Assembly: GCA_033344895.1 (NCBI GenBank)
Contig: JAWPMN010000001.1
Location: 558,001-622,000, forward strand
Origin: Alphaproteobacteria bacterium
GTDB taxonomy: Bacteria > Pseudomonadota > Alphaproteobacteria > UBA8366 > Aestuariispiraceae
Direction: 5' to 3'
Length of the DNA: 64,000 bases
Shown: one piece after another, positions 1 through 12,230 of the stretch
Layout: every line of letters starts with the position of its first letter
How positions within the stretch are numbered: position 1 is the stretch's first letter
Position numbers and translations under genes: made by a program
Notes under the pieces: generated by a model
Databases searched by the model: none
What the model was told of the DNA's origin: nothing
The model's input: only the letters and a program-made list of their open reading frames with translations

Positions 1-315
1 CATCATGTTCGTGACCGGCGCATTGAACGGTTCCTGTCCGGTCAGCGCGAGTTTGACCTCGGCGTCATGGACCAGCCCAAGATCGGTGCGGTTGGCACCC
101 AGAAGACCGATATTGGCAAACCCCCCCCCGGTCGCCTGGTAGGTGATCACGGAATCCCCATCGGACACCTTGACCGCCCGATCCATACCGGCACCCAGCA
201 GCGACCAAAGGCCGCCGGGGTTTCCGCCGGACAGGGTCAGGTTGACCGGCTCCGCCTGGGCCGCCCCGGCCGTCAGGCCAATACAGGCGGCAATTACAAA
301 TGCCTTAAGTTTCAT
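1..315 (-). CDS. TAXI-family TRAP transporter solute-binding protein, N-terminal part (runs off the window)
   Basis: The first 105 codons of a periplasmic binding protein are visible; the rest lies beyond position 1. The start ATG at 315 is followed by a short signal peptide (MKLKAFVIAACIGLTAGAAQA) ending at an AQA cleavage site. The mature part opens with a Gly-rich segment (GGNPGGLWSLLGAGMDRAV) and a later QATGGGFANIGLL, the pattern of the TAXI subfamily of TRAP receptors, which bind organic acids or amino acids for a DctM-type permease. A run of nine C at 121-129 encodes the Gly-Gly-Gly and is a possible slippage or sequencing-error spot, but the frame continues through it. It lies downstream of the aldehyde dehydrogenase and oxygenase genes on the same strand, so it is inferred to import the substrate of that pathway. 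Confidence 0.8.
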   Translation of the reverse strand, partial: MKLKAFVIAACIGLTAGAAQAEPVNLTLSGGNPGGLWSLLGAGMDRAVKVSDGDSVITYQATGGGFANIGLLGANRTDLGLVHDAEVKLALTGQEPFNAPVTNMM

Positions 316-337
316 CGAACGTCTCCCTTCCTCACCA

Positions 338-1825
338 TCATGGGTGTTTTGATTGTTTCGGAACGATCGTGACCGTCTTCTGCTCGGTGTAGGCGAGAAG
401 CTCCTCCAGACACTCTTCGCGTCCGATTCCGGAACTCTTCACGCCGCCGAACGGTGCGCCGAGGTAATGGTCACTCGAATCGTTGACCCAGACGTATCCA
501 GCCTGGATGCGATCCGTCAGGCGCATTGCGGTATCGAGGTCCCGGGTCCAAACAGACGCGGTCAGTCCGACATCCAAGCCATTGACGACGTCGAGCATCT
601 CGTCTTCGTCTTGCCAGGAAAGGACGGACAGAACCGGCCCGAACACCTCTTCACGCGCAATTCTCATTTGCGGCTTCAAACCGGTCACCAGCGTCGGACG
701 GACGAAGTATCCGCCCTTCGGTACGCTGGACGGCTCTCCGCCAGCGGCAAGAACGGCGCCTTCCGACACCGCCTGCTCAATGAAGCCGCACACTTTCTCG
801 TATTGCCGGGCCGTCGAAAGACAGCCCATCTCCGTAGCGTCGTCGGTCGGATCGCCGACCCGAACCTTGTCGAAAGCCTGCGCGATACCGTCGACGACGC
901 GGTCATGCAGAGATTGATGTACGAGAACCCGGCTCGTGGAACCGCAGGACTGTCCGGCGGTCCAACCCAGATTCATGCCCTTAACAGCACCAGCGATCGC
1001 CGCGTCGATATCGGCGTCCGGGCAAATCACCAGGGCATTCTTGCCACCGAGTTCTAGCTGTGTGCGTTTCAGCGTATCGGCACCGCCACGCAGCACGGCC
1101 TTGCCGGTCTGCACACTGCCGATCAGGCTGACCGCGGAAATACAACGGTGCCCACAGATGGCCGAACCAAGCTCCGCGCCCCCCGTCAGCACAGACAGTA
1201 TTCCGGGCGGGAAGATATCGGCGATCAACTCCGCCATGCGCAGCGCAGAGAGCGGCGTTTCTTCCGAAGGTTTCACGATGACCGCGTTTCCAGCGGCCAA
1301 TGGCGCCGCCATCTTTGCGGCCGCGAAGAGAAGCGGGTGATTGAAGGCCACCAGCCTGGCAACGACGCCCAACGGTTCCCGCGTCACATAAGTGATTTTC
1401 CCATCGCGCTGCGGAATCGTCTCGCCCTTGGCTTCCGTCGCGATGCCCGCAAAATAGTCGATCAGTGTCGCTCCAAGACCGACGTCGAACCGCATACCGG
1501 TGATGGGATTTCCGCTATCCAGCGCATCGATAAGCGCCAATTCCTCCGCATGATCCCTGAGACGTGCCGCAGCCTGACGCAGTGCCGCCCCTCGCGCGCC
1601 GGGACCGGCGCGGCGCCAAGCGGACTGAGCCGCCTTAGCGGCATCGACTGCGGAACTGAGGTCGGATAGGTCGGCATCGCGAATGGTGGCCAGCACCGTT
1701 CCGTCACTGGGAGAGCGAATGTCTCGTTCGCGGCCCGCCCCTTGGCGCCATACCCCGCCGACGAACAGTTCCGTTCGTACGACCGGCAGACTCCGCGCGG
1801 GTGCTTCCTTGGCGTAACCAGGCAC
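338..1825 (-). CDS. NAD(P)-dependent aldehyde dehydrogenase
   Basis: A full-length (495 aa) member of the aldehyde dehydrogenase superfamily, oxidising an aldehyde to a carboxylate in the cytoplasm. The catalytic cysteine is Cys294 in GQSCGSTSR and the general-base glutamate is Glu258 in QLELGGKN; the nucleotide-binding GS motif is in LIGSVQTGKAV (about 234-244). The start is GTG at 1825, preceded by a strong GGGAGGG at a spacing of about four bases. The sequence type is closest to betaine-aldehyde or aryl-aldehyde dehydrogenases; the substrate is not readable. It lies 121 bp downstream of the Rieske oxygenase on the same strand. A thiamine-diphosphate decarboxylase-like enzyme at the far end of the island could produce an aldehyde for it (inference). 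Confidence 0.9.
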   Translation of the reverse strand: MPGYAKEAPARSLPVVRTELFVGGVWRQGAGRERDIRSPSDGTVLATIRDADLSDLSSAVDAAKAAQSAWRRAGPGARGAALRQAAARLRDHAEELALIDALDSGNPITGMRFDVGLGATLIDYFAGIATEAKGETIPQRDGKITYVTREPLGVVARLVAFNHPLLFAAAKMAAPLAAGNAVIVKPSEETPLSALRMAELIADIFPPGILSVLTGGAELGSAICGHRCISAVSLIGSVQTGKAVLRGGADTLKRTQLELGGKNALVICPDADIDAAIAGAVKGMNLGWTAGQSCGSTSRVLVHQSLHDRVVDGIAQAFDKVRVGDPTDDATEMGCLSTARQYEKVCGFIEQAVSEGAVLAAGGEPSSVPKGGYFVRPTLVTGLKPQMRIAREEVFGPVLSVLSWQDEDEMLDVVNGLDVGLTASVWTRDLDTAMRLTDRIQAGYVWVNDSSDHYLGAPFGGVKSSGIGREECLEELLAYTEQKTVTIVPKQSKHP

Positions 1826-1946
1826 TGTACCCTCCCATCGAACGGGCCCAGGGGCCCCACGTCTTTTCGACGCTTTTTAATCGTTGCATCGCGGTGACTG
1901 GCACCGCACGGCCGCGCGTTCGTTGACGGCGGCCGCTATCTTTCCG

Positions 1947-3227
1947 TTACTCGGCGGCGTCCGCCGGTCTTTCCTGACCCAGGCTCCGCCAATCGATTTC
2001 TTTGTCGTATACGCCTTCCTTGGACGAGACCGTGACATGGGGGACCAACGGTGCCGTCGTTCCGATCGCCGGCCCGCCCTCCAGCACCGTGCGTGCCGCC
2101 TCGCTCATCAATCGTCGGAATTCTACGACCGCGATATCCGATGACCCCAGCAGGTCCGTCGATCGGTCGACCCGGGCACCCATCGACACCCACATCGCAA
2201 GATCCTGGTTCGGAATTCCTTGAATGCCGGTGAAGTTGCCCAGTTTCATAGCCTGACGGTCTTGCAGGAAATTGTTGTCCTCGTTCCGCTTCGGTACCCA
2301 TCGGTCATCGACATCGATGCCTTTCTGGGTATGGGTAAATTTTCGCCATTGCTCGGTCGACGGACAGGCCTTGCCGCCCCAGGCGATGAAGTGAAAATGG
2401 CTGGTCTCGTCGTCGATCGGGACAATCACCGTCGCGACGTTATAGTTGTTGTTCGGCGGGATCAGCGATGTGAACGGGGCGATGTATTCGGTGATCCGCA
2501 GATAATTGCGAGTCGCGGCATGTTTGATCGGCTTGCGGATCGCCGCGTAGTGAAACCCGTAGGGCGTCCGTTCCGTCTGCATGCGCGGCGACTTGTCGGT
2601 CGACGGACGGTACCAGGACGCATCGTCCGCTGCGGCACCCGGTACGCGTGCGGGAACCATGTCGGAGGAATGCAGCGAGGAGGAATGCGCGCTGTCGATC
2701 TGGCCTTCCGTGATCTGCGCCCAGTTCGCCGGGATACGCATTTTCAGAATAGAGACCAGCGTGTCGTCATCCGGCGAGAAGGCAGGCCGCTGAAACTCCG
2801 GCGCCTCGCTCTCGGTATCGAGCCATGCCCAGACAAAGCCTGCACATTCGTGGACCGGATAGGCCTGATGGCGAACCTTGTCGATCATCGGGGACCCTTC
2901 GGGCTCCGATGCCATGGACACGCAATTACCCTCTACGTCGAATTTCCAGCCGTGATAGAGGCAACGCAGTCCGCAGTCTTCATTCCGGCCATAGACCAAG
3001 GACGCCTTCCGATGCGGGCAAAGCTCGTTGAGCAGCCCCACGCGGCCTTCGGTATCGCGGAAACAGACATAGCGCCTCCCGATCGCTTCGATTAGCAAGG
3101 GCTTGCCATCGGGCTCGGAGACTTCCTCGGAAAGACAGATCGGGACCCAATGCTGACGCATGAGCTTGCCCATCGGCGCGTCGCCTTCGACCAGGGTCAG
3201 AAGATCGTTCTCTTCCTTGGAAAGCAT
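1947..3227 (-). CDS. Rieske non-haem iron oxygenase, alpha subunit (phthalate 4,5-dioxygenase-like)
   Basis: A 426-aa terminal oxygenase component. The Rieske [2Fe-2S] ligands are Cys70-x-His72 and Cys89-x2-His92 (CPHRKASLVYG and CLYHGWKF). The mononuclear iron site shows Asp178, His181 and His186 in QIDSAHSSSLH, with a probable third ligand Asp in the RVDRSTDLLGSSD region. The length and the LCPHRKASLVYGRNEDC segment fit the phthalate-dioxygenase (Pht3/OphA2) branch, which needs a separate reductase and no beta subunit. Start ATG at 3227 has GGGAGA six bases upstream. It is transcribed divergently from the reductase at 3346, and the shared promoter carries a tandem palindrome. The exact substrate cannot be fixed from sequence; an aromatic carboxylate is likely. 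Confidence 0.9.
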   Translation of the reverse strand: MLSKEENDLLTLVEGDAPMGKLMRQHWVPICLSEEVSEPDGKPLLIEAIGRRYVCFRDTEGRVGLLNELCPHRKASLVYGRNEDCGLRCLYHGWKFDVEGNCVSMASEPEGSPMIDKVRHQAYPVHECAGFVWAWLDTESEAPEFQRPAFSPDDDTLVSILKMRIPANWAQITEGQIDSAHSSSLHSSDMVPARVPGAAADDASWYRPSTDKSPRMQTERTPYGFHYAAIRKPIKHAATRNYLRITEYIAPFTSLIPPNNNYNVATVIVPIDDETSHFHFIAWGGKACPSTEQWRKFTHTQKGIDVDDRWVPKRNEDNNFLQDRQAMKLGNFTGIQGIPNQDLAMWVSMGARVDRSTDLLGSSDIAVVEFRRLMSEAARTVLEGGPAIGTTAPLVPHVTVSSKEGVYDKEIDWRSLGQERPADAAE

Positions 3228-3282
3228 GCGTTTCTCCCGTTTCTCTTCGTTTCATCTTCAGGGCAATGCTCTTGACGAAACG

Positions 3283-3309
3283 TTAGATTTCTAATATTTA
3301 GACATCTAA
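3283..3309. promoter_or_regulatory. Tandem TTAGA-N2-TCTAA operator in the oxygenase/reductase divergent promoter
   Basis: Two perfect 12-bp palindromes of the form TTAGA-N2-TCTAA lie at 3283-3294 and 3298-3309, separated by TAT, so their centres are 15 bp apart. They sit in the 118-bp gap between the divergent oxygenase and reductase genes. A TTGACG at 3272-3277 could serve as the -35 of a rightward promoter whose spacer and -10 region would be covered by the palindromes, which would suit repression. The MarR-family regulator at 6464-7003 is the obvious candidate binder, but no copy of the motif was seen in that regulator's own upstream region. Confidence 0.55.
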
Positions 3310-3345
3310 TAACATGAGAATCTGAGATTTGACAAGGGGGATTTC

Positions 3346-4290
3346 GTGGAAGCGCCCAACGACCGGATCGAGATGAAGGTGGCGGAGCGCCACAGCCTGA
3401 CCCCGGAAATCATGGAATTCACGCTGGAACCGGCAACCGGATCGGCCCTGCCGGCCTTTACGCCCGGCGCCCATATCACTGTCGAGACCCCTGACGGCGC
3501 CATGCGCCGATATTCGCTTTTGAACGACGGAACGGCCCCTTCCGCTTATGTGATCGCCGTTAAACGAGAGCGAAACTCCCGTGGCGGTTCGGCGTCGATG
3601 CATGAGCAGGCGCAGGAAGGAACGGCGCTGTTAATCGAGGCTCCGGAGAACGACTTCGAGTTGGTCGACAGTGCGAAATACATTCTGATCGCCGGCGGGA
3701 TCGGCGTGACCCCGATCCTGTCGATGGCCCGGCATCTCAGCCGTGAAGGAAAACCCTTCACCATCGTCTACTGCACACGGACCGCCGCAGACACCGCGTA
3801 TCTGGACGAGATTTCAGCCTTCAAGGGCGCCACCGTCCACCACGATGAAGGCGATATCGATCAGGCTTATGATTTTTGGGACCTGCTGGAGAAACCCGGG
3901 ACGGAGCATGTCTACTGCTGTGGCCCGTTCGGCCTGATGGAGGAAATCAAGGCCCTGACCGGACATTGGCCGGACGGTCGCGTTCATTTCGAAGAGTTCA
4001 GCCCGGTTTCCGTCGTTCGCGACGACGATGTCGCGTTCAACGTAACGCTAAAATCGAAAGGCCAGACGATCGAAGTTCCCGCCGATCGCTCCATTCTGGA
4101 AGCCTTGCGGGACGCCGGAGTGCAGACCGTTAGTTCTTGCGAAAGCGGCACGTGCGGCACCTGTAAATGCGCCTTGATCGAAGGCGAAGCGGATCACCGC
4201 GACCTTGTCCTTATGGACGAGGAAAAAGCCGACCACATCATGATCTGCGTCTCGCGCGCCAAGACCGGGGACCTGACGATTGATCTCTGA
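3346..4290 (+). CDS. PDR-type oxygenase reductase (flavin/NADH domain plus C-terminal [2Fe-2S] ferredoxin)
   Basis: A 314-aa electron-transfer protein that passes electrons from NAD(P)H through flavin and a plant-type [2Fe-2S] cluster to the oxygenase. The flavin-binding region includes RRYSLLND (around residue 50) and the nucleotide-binding domain includes ILIAGGIGVTPILSM. The C-terminal ferredoxin ligands are Cys265, Cys270, Cys273 and Cys301 (CESGTCGTCKC and MICVS). This flavin-NAD-Fe-S order is that of phthalate dioxygenase reductase and VanB-like proteins. The start is GTG at 3346 with AAGGGGG upstream. The gene starts a rightward operon with the dehydrogenase and decarboxylase-like genes; the next start overlaps its end by 11 bp. 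Confidence 0.9.
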   Translation: MEAPNDRIEMKVAERHSLTPEIMEFTLEPATGSALPAFTPGAHITVETPDGAMRRYSLLNDGTAPSAYVIAVKRERNSRGGSASMHEQAQEGTALLIEAPENDFELVDSAKYILIAGGIGVTPILSMARHLSREGKPFTIVYCTRTAADTAYLDEISAFKGATVHHDEGDIDQAYDFWDLLEKPGTEHVYCCGPFGLMEEIKALTGHWPDGRVHFEEFSPVSVVRDDDVAFNVTLKSKGQTIEVPADRSILEALRDAGVQTVSSCESGTCGTCKCALIEGEADHRDLVLMDEEKADHIMICVSRAKTGDLTIDL

Positions 4291-5446
4291 CCCCATCCGT
4301 CTGGGGGTCGCCGGACTCGGACGCGGCTTCATGTTGACTTTGCCGAGTTTGCTGGCCGATCCCCACACCAAACTGGTGGCCAGTGCCGCCCCGCGGGAGG
4401 AATCGCGGCAGGCCTTCCGAAACCAGTTCGGAGGAAACGCTCACACGACTGTCGAGGAACTGGCGAAAGACCCGGATGTCGAAGCGGTCTACATCGCCAC
4501 GCCGCATCAGATGCACCGCGACCATGCGGAAATTCTGGCGGCAGCCGGAAAGCACCTTCTTGTCGACAAGCCGCTGGCCATAGACATGGCGGATGCGACG
4601 GCGATTGTGGACGCGGTAGAGCGGGCCGGGATTCGTCTGGTCACCGGTCCCAGCCATAGCTTCGATCAGCCGGTCGTCGCCGCCCGCCATATAATCGACA
4701 CCGGGCGCTTCGGAACGGTGCGCATGGTCCACGCCCTGAATTACACGGATTTCCTATACCGCCCGCGCCGGCCGGAAGAACTTTCAACGGCATCGGGCGG
4801 CGGTGTCGTGTTCAGCCAGGCGGTTCATCAGGTCGATGTCGTTCGCCTGCTGATGGGAGGGACGGCGCACGCCGTCTCCGCCGCGACCGGCAACTGGGAC
4901 CCGGCGCGGCCGACCGAAGGCGCCTATGCGGCATTGCTGCATTTCGACGGGGGCCGATTCGCAAATCTCGTTTACTCCGGCTATGCCCATTACGACAGCG
5001 ATGTCCTCCAGGACGGGATCGGCGAACTGGGCCAGCCCAAGGATATGTCGACCTATGGCGCGGCCCGCCGGGCGCTGGCCTCCGTCTCCTCTCCGGAGGA
5101 AGAAGCCGCGTTAAAGTCGAAACGCACATTCGGCGCCACCGAGGTCCCGGCCGCCGCCCCCCATCCCGAGCATTTCGGGCCGGTCTTCATCAGTTGCGAC
5201 CGTGCCGACCTGCGCCTGACCGGCAAGGGGATCGAGATATGGGGCGATTCGAAGCGGGAATTCGTCTCTGTCCCCGCCATCCCGGCGCCACGCACCGAAG
5301 TTCTGAAAGGTCTCTACGACGCGATCCGGTTTGGTAAGGCGCCACCGCAGAATGCGCGGTGGGGCCGTGCCAGCCTGGAAGTCTGTCACGCGATCCTGGA
5401 AAGCGCGAACACCAACGAGCGCATCTTACTGCGCCATCAGTCCTAG
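4280..5446 (+). CDS. Gfo/Idh/MocA-family dehydrogenase (4,5-dihydrodiol-phthalate dehydrogenase-like)
   Basis: A 388-aa NAD(P)-dependent oxidoreductase. The Rossmann glycine motif is GVAGLGRGF at residues 9-17, and the family's EKP-type motif appears as VDKPLA near residue 97. In phthalate catabolism the cis-4,5-dihydrodiol dehydrogenase (Pht4/OphB) belongs to this family, and the protein resembles that branch (segments such as VYIATPHQMHRDHAEIL). The likely start is TTG at 4280, inside the last codons of the reductase; no in-frame ATG exists before the glycine motif, so an overlap start is preferred. Its place between an oxygenase reductase and a dihydroxyphthalate-decarboxylase-like gene supports rearomatisation of a dihydrodiol, but the natural substrate is unproven. 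Confidence 0.8.
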   Translation: MISDPIRLGVAGLGRGFMLTLPSLLADPHTKLVASAAPREESRQAFRNQFGGNAHTTVEELAKDPDVEAVYIATPHQMHRDHAEILAAAGKHLLVDKPLAIDMADATAIVDAVERAGIRLVTGPSHSFDQPVVAARHIIDTGRFGTVRMVHALNYTDFLYRPRRPEELSTASGGGVVFSQAVHQVDVVRLLMGGTAHAVSAATGNWDPARPTEGAYAALLHFDGGRFANLVYSGYAHYDSDVLQDGIGELGQPKDMSTYGAARRALASVSSPEEEAALKSKRTFGATEVPAAAPHPEHFGPVFISCDRADLRLTGKGIEIWGDSKREFVSVPAIPAPRTEVLKGLYDAIRFGKAPPQNARWGRASLEVCHAILESANTNERILLRHQS

Positions 5447-5469
5447 ATATCAGGGAGGAAAGACCGAAT

Positions 5470-6459
5470 ATGGGTACGCTGAGATTATCGATCGCCATGG
5501 GCGATTACGACCGCACCCGGCCGATCCACGACGGTCGCGTCAAGATTGACGGTGTGGAGCCGGTGACGATGCTGCTGTCGCCGGAAGAAATGTTCTTTCG
5601 GGCCTTCCGGCATGAAGCCTTCGATGTCAGCGAGCTTTCCTTCTCCTCCTATTGCGTAAAGCATTCGAAGGGAGAGAGCCCCTATGTCGCCGTGCCGGTA
5701 TTCCTGTCGCGGGCTTTCCGGCATTCCTCCATCTATATCCGTACCGACAAGGGAATCAAATCGCCGGCGGATCTAAAGGGCCGCCGGATCGGGATCGCGG
5801 AATGGCAATTGACCGCCAATGTCTGGGTCCGGGGAATCCTGGAGGACTACGACGTCAAGCAATCGGAGATCAGCTGGGTGCGCGGCGGTATGCACGCAAC
5901 CGGACGCCCCGAAAAGATTCCGGTCAACGTCCCGAATGACGTCACGATCGAAGCGGCCCCGGACGACCGGACGCTGGATCAGATGCTGCGCAATGGAGAG
6001 ATCGACGGGTTCATCGGCCCACGGTCCCTGCGCTGTTTCGACGAGGGACATCCGAATGTCGGACGGTTGTTCGCGGACGGCATCGAGGCGGCGTCCGCCC
6101 ATTTCGAGCGTACCGGCATCTTTCCAATCATGCATGTGCTCGGCGTGAAGCGGGAGATCGCGGATGCCAATCCCTGGCTGCCCGGCGCCCTGCTGAAGGC
6201 CTTTACACAATCCAAGGCAATGGCACAGCAGGCCCTGCAGGACACGTCGGCGACGAAGGTCACGATGCCCTTTGTCGAAGATACGCTAACGCTTGCCCGG
6301 CGCCTGATCGGGCCGGAAATCTGGACCTATGGCGTTCCCGGCAACGAGACGGTGCTGGAGGCGTTTCTGGACCTGCATCACCGGCAAGGACTTTCCCCGC
6401 GCCGCCTAAGCATCGGCGAGATTTTCCATCCGGCGACCTATGAGGCCTACAGCCTGTGA
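5470..6459 (+). CDS. 4,5-dihydroxyphthalate decarboxylase-like protein
   Basis: A 329-aa cytoplasmic protein without signal peptide, related to periplasmic-binding-protein folds and to Pht5/OphC 4,5-dihydroxyphthalate decarboxylase. The N-terminal pattern LSIAMGDYDRTRP, the FFRAFR segment and AVPVFLSRAFRHSSIY are typical of that family. The reaction would remove CO2 from a dihydroxylated aromatic dicarboxylate to give a catechol carboxylate such as protocatechuate. Start ATG at 5470 is chosen because GGGAGGA lies at 5453-5459; longer in-frame extensions upstream lack a ribosome site. It closes the reductase-dehydrogenase operon and ends 4 bp before the convergent MarR gene. Some family members of unknown function are annotated as binding proteins; absence of a signal peptide argues against that here. 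Confidence 0.8.
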   Translation: MGTLRLSIAMGDYDRTRPIHDGRVKIDGVEPVTMLLSPEEMFFRAFRHEAFDVSELSFSSYCVKHSKGESPYVAVPVFLSRAFRHSSIYIRTDKGIKSPADLKGRRIGIAEWQLTANVWVRGILEDYDVKQSEISWVRGGMHATGRPEKIPVNVPNDVTIEAAPDDRTLDQMLRNGEIDGFIGPRSLRCFDEGHPNVGRLFADGIEAASAHFERTGIFPIMHVLGVKREIADANPWLPGALLKAFTQSKAMAQQALQDTSATKVTMPFVEDTLTLARRLIGPEIWTYGVPGNETVLEAFLDLHHRQGLSPRRLSIGEIFHPATYEAYSL

Positions 6460-6463
6460 TCGG

Positions 6464-7003
6464 CTACTCCATGAAGCTGGAACGCGTGGCCGGCATTTTC
6501 AGGCCCCGCGCTTCGACTTCAATCTCATCCTGTTCAAGATTGGCGAGGATCGCGATCAGGTCTTCGCGGAGCCGGTCACGCCGCTCTTCCGGGATACCCG
6601 CAAGGGCGACCTCGTTCGCTTCGACCGCAAGCGGCTCGAGCAGTTTTTGCAGGTCGCGGCCCTTGGGACATAGGAAGACATGCTGCCGCCGCTTGTTACC
6701 GCCCTGCGTCCGGCGCTCGATGATCCCCAGCCGCTCCAACTTCGTCAGGGCGGTATGGGTGGTAGGTGCCGTAAGGTTTGCCGCTTCGGCCAACTGGCTT
6801 TGCGAAATTCCTTCGTGCTTCCACAGGATGCGCAGGAAGACCCATTGGCCGAACGAAATTTCATGCAGGGCCAACCGGCGTGCAAGCGACCGATTGAAGC
6901 CGCGGGCACACAAACGGACGAGATGCGCAATGCGTTCGTCCTGGTACGACAGAAGGTCCTTCGCATCCGGGGCGGCGTCGGGTTTCGGCCTTGGCGTGGA
7001 CAT
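6464..7003 (-). CDS. MarR-family transcriptional regulator
   Basis: A 179-aa winged-helix regulator. The recognition region reads ISQSQLAEAANLTAPTTHTAL, followed by a LERLGIIERR wing and a beta-hairpin segment with basic residues (GGNKRRQH). The start at 7003 (MSTPRPK) is preferred over an in-frame ATG 42 bp upstream because AGGAG sits five bases before it. It is convergent with the decarboxylase-like gene and divergent from the thiamine-diphosphate enzyme, as expected for a local repressor responding to an aromatic acid. MarR proteins usually bind palindromes of 15-20 bp as dimers. The tandem palindrome at 3283-3309 is a candidate target (inference). Confidence 0.88.
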   Translation of the reverse strand: MSTPRPKPDAAPDAKDLLSYQDERIAHLVRLCARGFNRSLARRLALHEISFGQWVFLRILWKHEGISQSQLAEAANLTAPTTHTALTKLERLGIIERRTQGGNKRRQHVFLCPKGRDLQKLLEPLAVEANEVALAGIPEERRDRLREDLIAILANLEQDEIEVEARGLKMPATRSSFME

Positions 7004-7027
7004 CCGGTCTCCTGGGCTCGATGCGAA

Positions 7028-7057
7028 GAAATGCGATACCGTCACGAGAAACGCGAT
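7028..7057. promoter_or_regulatory. Direct repeat GAAAYGCGAT in the marR/ThDP-enzyme divergent gap
   Basis: GAAATGCGAT (7028-7037) and GAAACGCGAT (7048-7057) differ at one base and are spaced exactly 20 bp apart, about two helical turns. They lie in the 111-bp gap between the divergent MarR regulator and thiamine-diphosphate enzyme. They could be a regulator site, but the repeat is short and chance is possible. Confidence 0.25.
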
Positions 7058-7114
7058 CCGGACGGGCTATGTCGCAGCGCGAAAGATGCAGCACAATAGC
7101 GAAGGAAGCAGGAA

Positions 7115-8887
7115 TTGGTAAACCCGAGGAAAGACGACCCCGCCGAAACGCCTGTGCCGAGCTCCGGCGACACGCTATGGGGCAGCGATGCCCTTGCCGA
7201 GACGCTGCGCCGCCTTGGCATTGAATATGTCGCGCTGAACCCGGGCTCCAGCCTTCGCGGACTCCACGACAGTCTGGTAAACCATCTGGGCAATACCGAT
7301 CCCAAAATGCTGCTCTGCCTTCATGAAGAGCATGCCGTCGCAATCGCACATGGCTGGGCCAAGGTAACCGGCGAGCCGATGGCGGTCATCCTGCATGCCA
7401 ATGTCGGCCTGATGCATGGCTCCATGGCGATTTACAATGCGTGGTGTGACCGGGTTCCGATGCTGATTCTGGGCGCCACCGGTCCGGTCGCCGCCGATTT
7501 ACGCCGACCGTGGATTGACTGGATACATACGTCCCGCGACCAGGCCGCGATCATCCGACCCTATGTGAAATGGGACGATCAACCCGCCAGCCTGCCCGCC
7601 TCGGTCGATGCGATGGCGCACGCCTTTTCGATTTCGAAGACCGCCCCGCAAGCACCCACCTATGTCTGCTTCGACGTTTCGGTGCAGGAGGCCGCGATAT
7701 CGGACATGCCGTCGCTTCCCACATTCTCCACATACCCGACGCCGGATGTCCCGACACCGTCGCCCTCGCAGCTCGCGCACCTCAAGGACATGCTGAAGCA
7801 GGCGGAACACCCGACATTCATGTTCGGGCGCATGACCCGCTCTGCCGAGGACTGGTCCGCGCGCGTCGCCCTGGCAGAGCACTACGGGGCGCGTGTGGTG
7901 ACCGACGTAAAGACCGGCGCGGTCTTTCCGACCGACCATCCGCTGCATGTCGGGCCGCCATCCTTCTTCCTGTCGGAGCCACAAGCAGCGGCGTTGCGGG
8001 AAGCGGATTTGATCGTTGCTTTCGATTGGGTCGACGTCGCGGGATCGATAGGCCACACGCAATCAACGGCTCCGGTGGTGAACATTTCCATCGATCATCA
8101 TTTGTCGAACGGCTGGTCCTTCGATCATACCGGTCCGGTTCGGGCGGAATTGCACATCGCCACGCAGCCTGACCTCTGCGTTGCCGCCTTGCTGGATGAC
8201 CTGGGAATCCCGCGGCCGGACGCCGTTCCCCCAATTCCTGTGACCGCCAATTCCGCTTTCGACGAAGCCGCCGACGCAATCTCGATGCAGGATTTCGCTA
8301 GCGCGCTCGGCGCAGGCCTTCGCGGAGAGCTAGCGACACTGATGCGCCTGCCGTTGGGATGGGATGCCGGACGTTGGGATTTCCATCATCCGCTGGACTA
8401 TCTGGGGTATGACGGCGGGGCGGGTATCGGCTCGGGGCCCGGCATGGCGGTCGGCGCGGCACTGGCCTTGCAGGAAACCGGGCGCCTGCCGGTCGCGGTC
8501 ATCGGTGACGGCGACACCATGATGGGAGTTTCCGCGTTATGGACCGCGGCCCGCTACCGGATCCCGATGCTGGTCGTCGTCTGCAACAACCGCTCCTTTT
8601 ACAATGACGAGATACACCAGGAGAAAGTTGCCAAGGCGCGAAACCGCCCCACCGAAAACAAGTGGATCGGCCAGGCCATCGCCGGTCCGGATATCGACTT
8701 CGCGGCGATGGCCGAGGCGCAAGGCATGATCGGCATTGGCCCGATCTCCAGGCCGCAAGACCTGTCGGATGCCATCCGATCCGCCGCCCGCCAGGTCCGC
8801 GACGGCCGCTGCGTCCTGATCGATGCCCGCGTCGAACCCGAATACGCTTCCTCCATGTCAAAGGGCATGACCGACGATGGGTCATAG
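7115..8887 (+). CDS. Thiamine-diphosphate-dependent enzyme (benzoylformate decarboxylase/acetolactate synthase-like)
   Basis: A 590-aa protein with the usual three domains of the 2-oxoacid decarboxylase/acetolactate synthase family. The cofactor-activating glutamate is in LHEEHAVAIAHGW (Glu71), and the thiamine-diphosphate/Mg motif runs from GDGD at 464-467 to Asn-Asn at 491-492. The likely start is TTG at 7115, with GGAAGCAGGAA just upstream; a GTG at 7154 is an alternative. The chemistry would be decarboxylation or carboligation of a 2-oxoacid; it could supply an aldehyde to the dehydrogenase at the left of the island. This enzyme type is not part of the textbook phthalate route, which makes the cluster unusual. 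Divergent from the MarR gene. Confidence 0.85.
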   Translation: MVNPRKDDPAETPVPSSGDTLWGSDALAETLRRLGIEYVALNPGSSLRGLHDSLVNHLGNTDPKMLLCLHEEHAVAIAHGWAKVTGEPMAVILHANVGLMHGSMAIYNAWCDRVPMLILGATGPVAADLRRPWIDWIHTSRDQAAIIRPYVKWDDQPASLPASVDAMAHAFSISKTAPQAPTYVCFDVSVQEAAISDMPSLPTFSTYPTPDVPTPSPSQLAHLKDMLKQAEHPTFMFGRMTRSAEDWSARVALAEHYGARVVTDVKTGAVFPTDHPLHVGPPSFFLSEPQAAALREADLIVAFDWVDVAGSIGHTQSTAPVVNISIDHHLSNGWSFDHTGPVRAELHIATQPDLCVAALLDDLGIPRPDAVPPIPVTANSAFDEAADAISMQDFASALGAGLRGELATLMRLPLGWDAGRWDFHHPLDYLGYDGGAGIGSGPGMAVGAALALQETGRLPVAVIGDGDTMMGVSALWTAARYRIPMLVVVCNNRSFYNDEIHQEKVAKARNRPTENKWIGQAIAGPDIDFAAMAEAQGMIGIGPISRPQDLSDAIRSAARQVRDGRCVLIDARVEPEYASSMSKGMTDDGS

Positions 8888-9461: not shown

Positions 9462-10943
9462 CTAGCGGGCGGCCTCGATGCGGCGAATGAAATCCGAGAC
9501 GATGGTGCGCCACAGACCGTCCTTCAGGACCTTGTCCTCGACGCCGGCATCCAGATTCGGATTGTCGTTCACCTCGATCACCACGGCCCGGTCGCCGATC
9601 AGCTTGGTATCGACGCCATAGAGCCCGTCACCGATCGGTTTGGCGGCGGCCAGGGCAGCGTCGAGAATGGCCGACGGCACGGCGTCCAGATCCACCGTTT
9701 CGAACCCGCCCTCGTCCGGCGCGCCCTTGGCAGCATGGTTGATGATCTGCCAGTGACCGCGCGCCATGAAATACTTGGACGCGAAGATCGGCGCACCGTT
9801 CAGGATGCCGATCCGCCAGTCATAATCGGTCCGCATGTATTCCTGCGACAGGATCAGGTCGGACCGGCTCAGCATCTCCCGGCCCAGCTTGATCATTTGA
9901 CCGGCATCATCGGCGCGTTTCACGCCCCGGGAAAACGCCCCGTCGGGCACTTTCAGGACGATGGGGTAGGTCGTTTCCTCGGCCACCTGTTCCAGATTGT
10001 CCTTGTCGATCACGCGGGTGCGCGGCGAGGGAATGTTGTGGGTCCTGAACAGTTCGGCCAGGTAGACCTTGTTGGTGCAGCGCAGGATCGACATGGCGTC
10101 GTCGATACAGGGAATGCCCTCCGCCTCGGCCCGTTTGGCAAAGCGATAGGTGTGGTGGTCCAGGGCGGTGGTCTCGCGGATGAACAGCGCGTCGAACTCG
10201 GCCAGTCGGGGCAGATCGCGGCGGCCGATCGTCTCCACCTTCACCCCCATGGAGGCGCCGACGCGCACGATGCGTTCAATGGCCTGTGGGCTGGAGGGCG
10301 GCATCGCCTCCTTCGGGTCGACCAGCACCGCCAGCGTATAGCGCGGGCCACGCGCCAGGGCCGGGGTCGGCCGGTGCCGTTTGGTATAGGAATCCAGCCC
10401 TTTCTCGAACAGGGGCCGCTCCGCCAGCGGCAGCTTCTTCCAGTTCGGCACACGGACATCGGTGATGCGGTAGACGAGTTCGCCGCCTTCGGTTTCCGCC
10501 CGCTCGTAGTGAACACGCAGGATCGGGCAGCGGAATGCGTCGAAGACCGAACGGGCCAGATGCTTGAAGCGGGTTTCGGCGCTGATGCCGAAACAGACCG
10601 TGATCGGCGCCCCGCCCTCGCCCTCCGGATCGGGGCTGCGGCGCAGGGCCTTGGTCAGCTGGCGTTCCATATCGCCCAGCGCGCGGCGATAGATGCGCTT
10701 CCAGCCGACCCACAACATCGCCTCCGCCGAGGGCAGAATCCGGTCGCCCCGTGCCTCTGCGGTCAGGGCGCAGTAATAGCCGAGGCCGAGATAGCTGTAG
10801 TCGCTGCACAGATTGACCACGCGGGTGCGCTTTGCATAGGGCTTGGCCCGCATCAGGTAGTCATGGGCGGACACGGCTTCCCGCCCCGGCCCGGGAAACG
10901 GAAACTCGGCGCCGTCATCAATGATGAACACGGTTCGGCTCAC
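9462..10943 (-). CDS. RimK-type ATP-grasp ligase with N-terminal RLAN domain
   Basis: A 493-aa protein: an N-terminal RimK-like accessory domain (roughly 1-190) followed by an ATP-grasp module (about 280-490). ATP-grasp features include TYPIVLKVPDGAFSRGVKR, LILSQEYMRTDYDWRIGILNG and the Mg-binding VVIEVNDNPNLDAG near the C-terminus. Such enzymes join an amino acid or peptide to a carboxylate using ATP. The start is GTG at 10943 with AGAGGAG eight bases upstream; the next gene upstream ends 12 bp away, so the two are co-transcribed. The partner is a GNAT/C39-like fusion, a pairing known from comparative genomics of amidoligases but without a settled product. The substrate is unknown. Confidence 0.85.
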   Translation of the reverse strand: MSRTVFIIDDGAEFPFPGPGREAVSAHDYLMRAKPYAKRTRVVNLCSDYSYLGLGYYCALTAEARGDRILPSAEAMLWVGWKRIYRRALGDMERQLTKALRRSPDPEGEGGAPITVCFGISAETRFKHLARSVFDAFRCPILRVHYERAETEGGELVYRITDVRVPNWKKLPLAERPLFEKGLDSYTKRHRPTPALARGPRYTLAVLVDPKEAMPPSSPQAIERIVRVGASMGVKVETIGRRDLPRLAEFDALFIRETTALDHHTYRFAKRAEAEGIPCIDDAMSILRCTNKVYLAELFRTHNIPSPRTRVIDKDNLEQVAEETTYPIVLKVPDGAFSRGVKRADDAGQMIKLGREMLSRSDLILSQEYMRTDYDWRIGILNGAPIFASKYFMARGHWQIINHAAKGAPDEGGFETVDLDAVPSAILDAALAAAKPIGDGLYGVDTKLIGDRAVVIEVNDNPNLDAGVEDKVLKDGLWRTIVSDFIRRIEAAR

Positions 10944-10955
10944 GGAAAGGCTCCT

Positions 10956-12086
10956 CTAACGCTGAAGAATCAGGGCGGCGCGCTGGCGGGCGCGGCCATA
11001 GCGCGACATGCGTTCGAAATCGTCGCGCGGTATCGGGACCGCCATGCGGTCGGTCTGGCTCTGGATGACGTCCGGGTCGACAAAGGGATCGTGGACATAG
11101 ACGAAACGGTCATCCATGGCGACGACGACGACCCAATGCGGCACCTTTTCGCGGTCGAGCGCATAGGTGGAGATCAGCACGATCGGCACGGCGCCCTCAC
11201 TCAGCAGGTCCTGCAGTTCGCTCAGGGTCAGGGCGATGTTGTCCACCGGGACCCCTGTCTCCTTGAGCTGCGCCAGATAATCCTCCTGCACCAGGCGGAT
11301 CACATCCTTCTTTTCCGCGCGGCGGACCGTGTCGACGAACATCATGTCGGGGTCGCGGACATGGACGCTGACCCTGAAGCCCCGCTGAGCGGCGGCCAGT
11401 GCCATGCCATAGGGTGAGCATCCGGCGGGACCGCGCGTCATGAAGACCGTGGTCGATTCCCGCCACAGGCGCAGTTCCTCGACCCGATTCATCTCATACC
11501 CTTCGTCCAGCGCAGCCATCGCCATCATCAGGCAGGCCGGTCCGCAGGTGAAATTCAGGCTCTGAGGATAATACGGGAACCCCTCGACACCTTCGGGCCG
11601 TTTCCCGATCAGTGCCTTGTCCAGACGCAGGGCGTCGCCGCCGTCCTGATAGTATCCGGCTATGCGGCCGAACGGCTTGTAGCCGGAGTGGCGATAGAGG
11701 GAGATCGCCTCCGCATTGTCGGCATGCACCTCCAGGCGCAGATAGGCCGCCCCGTCATCCGACGCGGCCTCCTCCGCCGCCGCCAGCAGGGCCCGGGCAT
11801 AGCCCAAGCCACGCCGTTCCGGCAATACCGCCAGCGAATAGAGCCGGGACAGCGACGTGCCGCGATGAAACAGCACAACGGCATAGCCCGCGATCACGCC
11901 GTCCGGTGCGACCAGGACACGGGCGGCCTGATGCCCCTTGGTCAGCAGGTGGCGAAAACTGCGTCGGCTGATCCGGTCGGTATCGAAACACCGCGCTTCA
12001 AGAGCCACCAGATCGTCCAGATCCGTCAGTTCCGCCGGCCGTATGAGGGCTCCCGCCGCCAGATCATCCAAAATAAACCCGTCCAT
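10956..12086 (-). CDS. GNAT acetyltransferase fused to a C39-like cysteine peptidase domain
   Basis: A 376-aa two-domain protein. Residues about 12-155 form a GNAT fold (acetyl-CoA motif in LAVLPERRGLGYARALL, then EVHADNAEAISLYRHSGYK). Residues about 170-376 form a papain-like C39 domain with Cys181 in NFTCGPACLMMAM and a later His in VPHWVVVVAMDD, followed by YVHDPF. The start at 12086 (MDGFILDD) is chosen because TAGGA lies at good spacing; an in-frame ATG 87 bp upstream lacks a site. It precedes the RimK-type ligase by 12 bp. Together they could acylate, ligate and trim a peptide or small molecule; this is inference. No signal peptide was seen, so action is cytoplasmic. Confidence 0.85.
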   Translation of the reverse strand: MDGFILDDLAAGALIRPAELTDLDDLVALEARCFDTDRISRRSFRHLLTKGHQAARVLVAPDGVIAGYAVVLFHRGTSLSRLYSLAVLPERRGLGYARALLAAAEEAASDDGAAYLRLEVHADNAEAISLYRHSGYKPFGRIAGYYQDGGDALRLDKALIGKRPEGVEGFPYYPQSLNFTCGPACLMMAMAALDEGYEMNRVEELRLWRESTTVFMTRGPAGCSPYGMALAAAQRGFRVSVHVRDPDMMFVDTVRRAEKKDVIRLVQEDYLAQLKETGVPVDNIALTLSELQDLLSEGAVPIVLISTYALDREKVPHWVVVVAMDDRFVYVHDPFVDPDVIQSQTDRMAVPIPRDDFERMSRYGRARQRAALILQR

Positions 12087-12230
12087 GACCATCCTACCAA
12101 AAAGCGCGAAGTCCGGTCCGAAACGGGCCCGGATCGCGTTCGCGCTATATCGATGATAACCGATTTTTCGCAAAGGGAAAAAAGCGCGCGTGGCCTGCGG
12201 GACCGGTCCGCGATTTGCGCATGGGTCTGG

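Follow-up and report, generated by a model that had tools for sequence, protein, structure and literature searches.

An oxygenase-based phthalate cluster with a candidate phthalonate decarboxylase in a member of the Aestuariispiraceae

The catabolic locus

The stretch of DNA analysed here (the window, 64,000 nucleotides) corresponds to C1:558001-622000 of the single-contig genome (4,637,961 bases) of an alphaproteobacterium of the Aestuariispiraceae. Its left edge is straddled by a catabolic array in which genes of the phthalate 4,5-dioxygenase route, including that of the oxygenase component (PDO), are joined by an aldehyde dehydrogenase (ALDH) gene and by a gene coding for a thiamine-diphosphate (ThDP)-dependent enzyme, whose role in the cluster is the subject of this report (Table 1). 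All the genes named in a preliminary description of the window were confirmed as open frames with the expected domains; the gene of the MarR-family regulator was absent from that description.

Table 1. Features of the catabolic cluster inside the window (positions of the window).
Feature	Position	Strand	Basis or remark
TAXI-family TRAP solute-binding receptor, N-terminal 105 codons	1-315	-	TIGR02122; gene continues to C1:557332
ALDH, proposed PhdK-like 2-carboxybenzaldehyde (2-formylbenzoate) dehydrogenase	338-1825	-	Aldedh, E 2.3e-149
PDO, phthalate 4,5-dioxygenase oxygenase component	1947-3227	-	Rieske and LigXa_C domains
Two tandem perfect palindromes TTAGANNTCTAA, proposed MarR operator	3283-3294, 3298-3309		Divergent PDO/reductase promoter
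Phthalate dioxygenase reductase (PDR-type; NAD-binding domain and C-terminal [2Fe-2S] ferredoxin domain)	3346-4290	+	PF00175, PF00111
Gfo/Idh/MocA dehydrogenase, dihydrodiol dehydrogenase of the route	4280-5446	+	Best solved relative 7wzd
4,5-dihydroxyphthalate decarboxylase, periplasmic-binding-protein-like family, Pht5-type	5470-6459	+	Best solved relative 9jp7
MarR-family regulator, proposed cluster repressor	6464-7045	-	PF01047, E 7.5e-13
ThDP-dependent 2-oxo-acid decarboxylase, proposed phthalonate (2-carboxyphenylglyoxylate) decarboxylase	7115-8887	+	Three TPP domains

In the 20 kb read across the edge, the minus strand continues after the TAXI receptor with a fused TRAP permease, pcaH (C1:554661-555410), pcaG (C1:554060-554659), pcaI, pcaJ and then a DMT-family gene. 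pcaH and pcaG code for intradiol dioxygenase domains and pcaI and pcaJ for CoA-transferase domains; these four genes are 2.6-5.4 kb beyond the left end of the window, and overlaps of one to four bases join receptor to permease, permease to pcaH and pcaI to pcaJ. The genes for uptake, ring oxidation, decarboxylation, ring cleavage and CoA transfer span about 14.3 kb (C1:552614-566887), while candidates for pcaC and pcaD, both above their cut-offs, and for pcaB, slightly below its own (353.7 against 355.75 bits), are found elsewhere in the genome. The apparent absence of a ring-cleavage enzyme, correct for the window but not for the genome, can be ruled out as a gap in the route, and genes of the protocatechuate pathway, which the preliminary description proposed to look for, are present in the flank and, as candidates, at these other sites. 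Eight other loci (L042-L045, L047 and L049-L051; L numbers denote loci) keep an identical order and identical strands from the TAXI permease through the ThDP gene, so that this grouping is not due to chance.

The transporter belongs to the TAXI-TRAP type, with the whole receptor, read from the flank, scoring 156.1 bits for TIGR02122 (cut-off 84.35) and the fused permease 553.4 bits for TIGR02123 (cut-off 320.65). A TAXI-TRAP system for ortho-phthalate uptake is described in an account of denitrifiers (PMC13040137), likewise with one receptor and one fused permease beside the catabolic genes, although the clusters of that account are anaerobic and CoA-dependent, whereas the one in the window is oxygenase-based. 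Given this published system, the TAXI receptor no longer points to an unusual substrate, and the earlier suggestion that it is foreign to the phthalate route falls as well.

An orthodox phthalate 4,5-route around one type of oxygenase

By sequence, the core of the cluster is that of the orthodox ortho-phthalate 4,5-pathway with all four of its activities, as had been recognised from the letters. The best solved relative of the oxygenase is that of Comamonas KF1 (7fjl; E 7.9e-170, 59% identity over 416 residues), that of the Gfo/Idh/MocA protein was deposited as 4,5-dihydroxyphthalate dehydrogenase (7wzd; E 1.9e-120), and the decarboxylase matches over its full length (residues 2-330) an entry deposited as 4,5-dihydroxyphthalate decarboxylase (9jp7; E 2.6e-126). 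The likeness to the pht/oph pathway extends to the oxygenase residues checked below, but that pathway lacks the upstream pair of ThDP enzyme and ALDH seen here.

In the KF1 enzyme, Arg207 and Arg244 are described as binding both carboxylates of phthalate, Ser182 and Arg207 as key for this substrate (Val and Leu occupy these positions in the isophthalate enzyme) and Ile256 as important for dioxygenation (PMC12445078). The window oxygenase has all four residues, which are also present in 47 of 52 alignment rows, KF1 included. The five exceptions are three distant relatives (33-36% identity; Val and a gap), one enzyme of 40% identity with Phe256, and one with an unreadable residue; position 256 cannot be read in the oxygenase of L106, and that of L124 (genome G107) carries one internal stop. 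A quick maximum-likelihood tree, with support from the Shimodaira-Hasegawa-like approximate likelihood ratio test (SH-aLRT) only, was built from 52 oxygenases: KF1, 36 from loci that include a ThDP gene and 15 from loci that do not (L061, L062, L133, L040, L041 and the window copy were left out). On this tree the presence of the ThDP gene changes 8 times, 6 of them forced by well-supported branches, against a mean of 13.9 with shuffled labels. KF1 is nested among oxygenases with and without the ThDP gene, pairing with that of an Acidovorax plasmid whose ThDP gene sits about 14 kb off, so the oxygenases group with the characterised enzyme, inside the phthalate branch, as the preliminary description required for its reading to stand. 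The ThDP/ALDH add-on is, on these sequences, gained and lost around one phthalate oxygenase type. Together, the kept pocket residues and the interleaving in the tree speak against an oxygenase of a different substrate class, and so against the different ring substrate first suggested, and they imply that a side chain is probably removed before ring attack, with phthalate itself as an intermediate.

The ThDP enzyme and the aldehyde dehydrogenase

Benzoylformate decarboxylases (BFD) head the list of solved sequence relatives of the ThDP enzyme. Its AlphaFold2 model was built with 38 relatives (L115, with an in-frame stop, and L117 were left out of this alignment) and reached a mean predicted local distance difference test (pLDDT) of 87.2 and a predicted template modelling score (pTM) of 0.90. 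With this model, the first Foldseek match by E-value is a 4-hydroxybenzoylformate decarboxylase (6qsi; E 1.6e-34, 22% identity), while HKA synthase has the highest TM-score of the list and 2-hydroxyacyl-CoA lyases stand near the top. Residues were mapped on the Pseudomonas putida BFD, in a sequence that agrees with the BFD pieces in the structure-search alignment. Glu47 is kept in all 37 phthalate-linked rows and His70 in all 91 rows of the alignment, and the equivalent of Ser26 is Ser in 36 of the 37 linked rows versus 13 of 52 unlinked ones (Ala in 39). In the tree of these 91 sequences a clade of 36 (SH-aLRT 99) holds 33 members from loci with a PDO gene; in the other three the decarboxylase or the ALDH gene is present, and in two of them the gene set is cut by a contig end. 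Four further PDO-linked sequences fall outside this clade, so ThDP genes were recruited more than once. The clade-specific columns are mostly hydrophobic swaps, besides Ser45 (the BFD Ser26), and no clade-specific Arg or Lys was seen among the 25 columns listed.

MdlC and MdlD are the names of the benzoylformate decarboxylase and the benzaldehyde dehydrogenase of the mandelate pathway, a pair that follows a similar logic, from 2-oxo acid to aldehyde to aryl acid, with a related fold and the equivalents of Ser26, Glu47 and His70 in the decarboxylase. The differences are the low identity (22-23% in the Foldseek list), the change of His281 to Asp, a C-terminal part aligned only piecemeal and a proposed substrate with an ortho carboxylate. 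Judged by its sequence, the ThDP enzyme may act in the manner of BFD while standing outside that family. The automatic depositor annotation of one plasmid labels the ThDP/ALDH pair mdlC and phdK.

The ALDH matches no NCBIfam equivalog at or above its cut-off and is 49% identical to a plasmid gene deposited as phdK (annotated by similarity); the PhdK studied biochemically is that of Nocardioides KP7. A phdK-pht cluster adjoined by TRAP and MarR genes is reported for Roseovarius indicus, for Rhodobium orientis DSM 11290 and for 13 of 33 Thalassospira genomes, and strain Thalassospira GO-4 is described as growing on 2-carboxybenzaldehyde and forming phthalate dihydrodiol and dihydroxyphthalate (PMC9604089, 2022). 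The R. orientis locus is among ours (L044), with an ALDH 79% and a PDO 82% identical to those of the window, and because it belongs to this published cluster, 2-carboxybenzaldehyde dehydrogenase is the best name for the ALDH and its most likely activity. The two systems have in common the ALDH, oxygenase, reductase, dihydrodiol dehydrogenase, decarboxylase, TRAP transporter and MarR protein; the main text of that paper does not contain the word thiamine, and no ThDP gene is named in section 7 (PMC9604089), whereas the ThDP enzyme is treated here as a working part.

Co-occurrence and distribution

Loci were counted as PDO loci when their oxygenase was at least 45% identical to that of the window. 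Among 60 such loci, 42 hold both ThDP and ALDH genes, three the ThDP gene without ALDH (L055, L111 and L130), none ALDH without ThDP, and 15 neither; this count leaves out L169, a repeat of L065, with which it becomes 43, 3, 0 and 15 of 61. Most of these loci were found with the ThDP protein as query, which inflates the share of ThDP-bearing loci and affects the ThDP/ALDH pairing less. The pair appears in several gene orders in Alpha- and Betaproteobacteria, and in Bosea-type, Herbaspirillum and Massilia loci the two genes are adjacent on one strand. On plasmids, the oxygenase was found in 46 records and the ThDP protein in 38, with at least 23 accessions in both (taking the best 40 of the 46 oxygenase rows); these include pCAR3 (two records), where the two genes are 27 kb apart. 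The idea that the two enzymes are conserved partners of the operon is borne out by these counts as a linkage to phthalate operons, but it concerns a minority of them when clusters are sought from the oxygenase, and the ThDP gene is an add-on to phthalate clusters.

Some of the plasmid clusters contain additional enzymes. Fourteen annotated plasmid regions were opened, 11 of which hold a PDO gene, and in five of these (Phaeobacter, Salipiger, Thioclava, Acidovorax and Rhizobium) there is also an alpha-hydroxy-acid oxidase gene, whose products are 52-95% identical to the Phaeobacter copy. In three of the five (L137, L155 and L158) a gene for a 2-hydroxyacid dehydrogenase directly adjoins or overlaps the stop codon of the ThDP gene (TGATG in Phaeobacter). 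With L169 counted, the oxidase is present in 5 of 46 ThDP-bearing loci versus 0 of 15 other oxygenase loci. Both of these enzymes produce 2-oxo acids from 2-hydroxy acids.

A palindrome and the MarR regulator

Allowing up to one mismatch, the 64 kb contain no match besides the two TTAGANNTCTAA palindromes (0.16 expected; two matches also arise in 2 of 100 shuffles). Operator-like sites of this kind, with up to one mismatch to TTAGATATCTAA within 300 bases upstream, were counted in 57 phthalate loci (the copies L061-L063, L133 and L169 were excluded) against shuffles that keep base composition only. They precede PDO in 50 of 57 loci (0.45 expected), the reductase in 43 of 54, the TAXI receptor in 11 of 28, ALDH in 12 of 39 and the ThDP gene in 8 of 42 (0.05 expected), and none of the 53 decarboxylase genes; before the PDO, TAXI, ALDH and ThDP genes they are far above the shuffled expectation. 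Loci with a site include a MarR gene in 46 of 50 cases and those without a site in 3 of 7, so that gene and site occur together in 46 of 57. This pattern suggests that the MarR protein probably represses the cluster through TTAGATATCTAA-type sites. A search for a palindrome common to the PDO promoter of the window and its MarR/ThDP gap gave none.

Proposed pathway and alternatives

Taken together, these sequences point, as the probable reading, to a phthalate island with an added upstream branch under MarR control, in which the ThDP enzyme would decarboxylate phthalonate (2-carboxyphenylglyoxylate) to CO2 and 2-carboxybenzaldehyde and the ALDH would oxidise this aldehyde to phthalate, which the 4,5-route would then turn into protocatechuate for the 3-oxoadipate pathway. 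A decarboxylase and an ALDH placed before phthalate imply this order of intermediates, and phthalonate is proposed as the substrate on that ground, with the genes for alpha-hydroxy-acid enzymes in the plasmid clusters as a further pointer; an oxo-acid side chain that is first decarboxylated and then oxidised, as the preliminary description had it, is still the best account of the pair. In some relatives, the alpha-hydroxy-acid oxidase or the 2-hydroxyacid dehydrogenase would feed in 2-carboxymandelate, as if the decarboxylase-dehydrogenase pair of the mandelate pathway had been transferred to ortho-carboxylated substrates, and MarR repression through TTAGATATCTAA-type sites would act on these genes. 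A broader claim, to which we give somewhat less than even chances, is that Alpha- and Betaproteobacteria carry, on chromosomes as well as plasmids, an as yet undescribed ortho-carboxy mandelate pathway, leading from 2-carboxymandelate by way of phthalonate and 2-carboxybenzaldehyde to phthalate; it would have a decarboxylase dedicated to phthalonate and one MarR/TTAGATATCTAA regulon that includes the phthalate genes. In the open-licence literature, no paper was found on bacterial catabolism of phthalonate or carboxymandelate (judged from listings), nor, among the matches listed, on a ThDP decarboxylase tied to phthalate genes.

Several observations weigh against this branch. There is no alpha-hydroxy-acid enzyme in the window cluster, and the two full-length ones of the genome are about 2.1 and 2.2 Mb off and only 38-39% like those of the clusters. 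Starting from the oxygenase, found in 14 of 385 genomes of the class (own included) and in 4 others among 398 of the phylum, the ThDP gene lies beside PDO in only 4 of 18 genomes (own included), 3 of which also have the ALDH gene. Phylogenetically independent contrasts between ThDP and ALDH are too few (about 3.7 of 4 agree, p 0.125), so that the linkage is by this measure suggestive and not proof. Within the enzyme, BFD His281 is Asp in all 37 phthalate-linked rows, leaving the four-residue catalytic set of BFD incomplete, and the score of 159.8 bits is far from the curated BFD cut-off of 493 (NF005485), which places it outside that family. The Ser26 equivalent, which occurs in unlinked enzymes too, is a weak marker of phthalonate enzymes, and ThDP relatives often lack phthalate genes in their neighbourhood (54 of 91 rows). 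Finally, no operator-like site precedes the ThDP gene of the window.

Two other accounts of the ThDP enzyme are considered unlikely. The cluster could be the known phdK-pht set, fed by the breakdown of polycyclic aromatics, with the ThDP gene as a neighbour with another job: the published set is described, in the parts of the paper cited above, without mention of such an enzyme (PMC9604089), and in the window this gene starts separately, beside the divergent MarR gene. But gain and loss of the ThDP gene go with those of the ALDH gene, the two sit side by side in the loci named above and in some loci have palindromes in common with PDO, and a pyruvate-releasing aldolase yielding 2-carboxybenzaldehyde was not recognised in the window cluster (no genome search was made). 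The enzyme might, with similarly low probability, yield this aldehyde otherwise, as a lyase on a benzoin-like ketone or on a 2-hydroxyacyl-CoA (giving formyl-CoA), or act on it as a carboligase. In its favour, BFD-family enzymes can carry out carboligation, and HKA synthase and the 2-hydroxyacyl-CoA lyases are among the best fold matches; against it, benzoylformate decarboxylases top both the sequence list and, by E-value, the Foldseek list, the window cluster shows no recognisable CoA ligase, and the extra enzymes accompanying the ThDP gene interconvert hydroxy and oxo acids. Less probable still is the original version, in which the oxygenase attacks a dicarboxylate still bearing its acyl or oxo-acid chain, which is removed later. 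A relaxed oxygenase would be compatible with the sequence, and L077, L110 and L140 hold decarboxylase-like, ThDP and ALDH genes with no PDO recognised nearby, but the phthalate pocket is kept and the interleaved tree, with KF1 inside, speaks against it.

The association first seen in the window is real, and its most striking claims turn out to be edge effects or already explained; what remains is an overlooked ThDP enzyme tied to phthalate genes. Phthalate genes are usually taken as markers of plasticiser breakdown. Should this enzyme channel phthalonate into phthalate, some of these clusters, which can be defined as a group, would draw on another source as well, natural or photo-oxidised, and a gene that currently carries the deposited name 'thiamine pyrophosphate-binding protein' would gain a testable substrate; the conserved palindrome is a simple handle on the regulon. 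Echinochrome A, a sea-urchin naphthoquinone, is reported to yield on air oxidation first a derivative of phthalonic acid and next one of formylbenzoic acid (PMC7587531), and ring-opened naphthoquinones could be natural substrates of the ortho-carboxy mandelate route. If that pathway exists, 'phthalate' operons would serve partly for the breakdown of natural quinones and aromatics and not of plasticisers alone.

Other observations

A quinolinate phosphoribosyltransferase gene (nadC), which is cited as aiding growth on phthalate (PMC6051330, citing Chang and Zylstra 1999), lies inside 11 of 46 ThDP-bearing versus 1 of 15 other phthalate loci (L169 counted; among them L137, L139, L155, L158 and L161), a difference that does not discriminate sharply between the two. 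The window genome has no NadC match (TIGR00078), while 12 of 14 control genomes do, suggesting that NAD synthesis in this organism may bypass the phthalate-sensitive quinolinate step.

Decarboxylase-like, ThDP and ALDH genes without an oxygenase of at least 45% identity in the stretch fetched were seen in L140 (an Antarctobacter plasmid, with a GMC oxidoreductase beside them), L097 and L099 (gammaproteobacteria) and L136 (a genome of the same genus); such sets perhaps serve already hydroxylated phthalates. In L015/L040 (G009:C56) two head-to-head decarboxylase-like genes, each 63-65% like that of the window, are about 0.8 kb apart.

About 10-28 kb left of the window (L011, C1:530001-548000), the open frames suggest a QuiC-like dehydroshikimate dehydratase and an AroE-like shikimate dehydrogenase, a possible second supply of protocatechuate close to pcaGHIJ, together with a DctPQM-type TRAP system and a group of luciferase-like monooxygenase, flavin reductase and ALDH. 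Inside the window, at 9462-12173, two neighbouring minus-strand genes appear to code for a RimK-like ATP-grasp protein and a GNAT/peptidase-C39-like protein.

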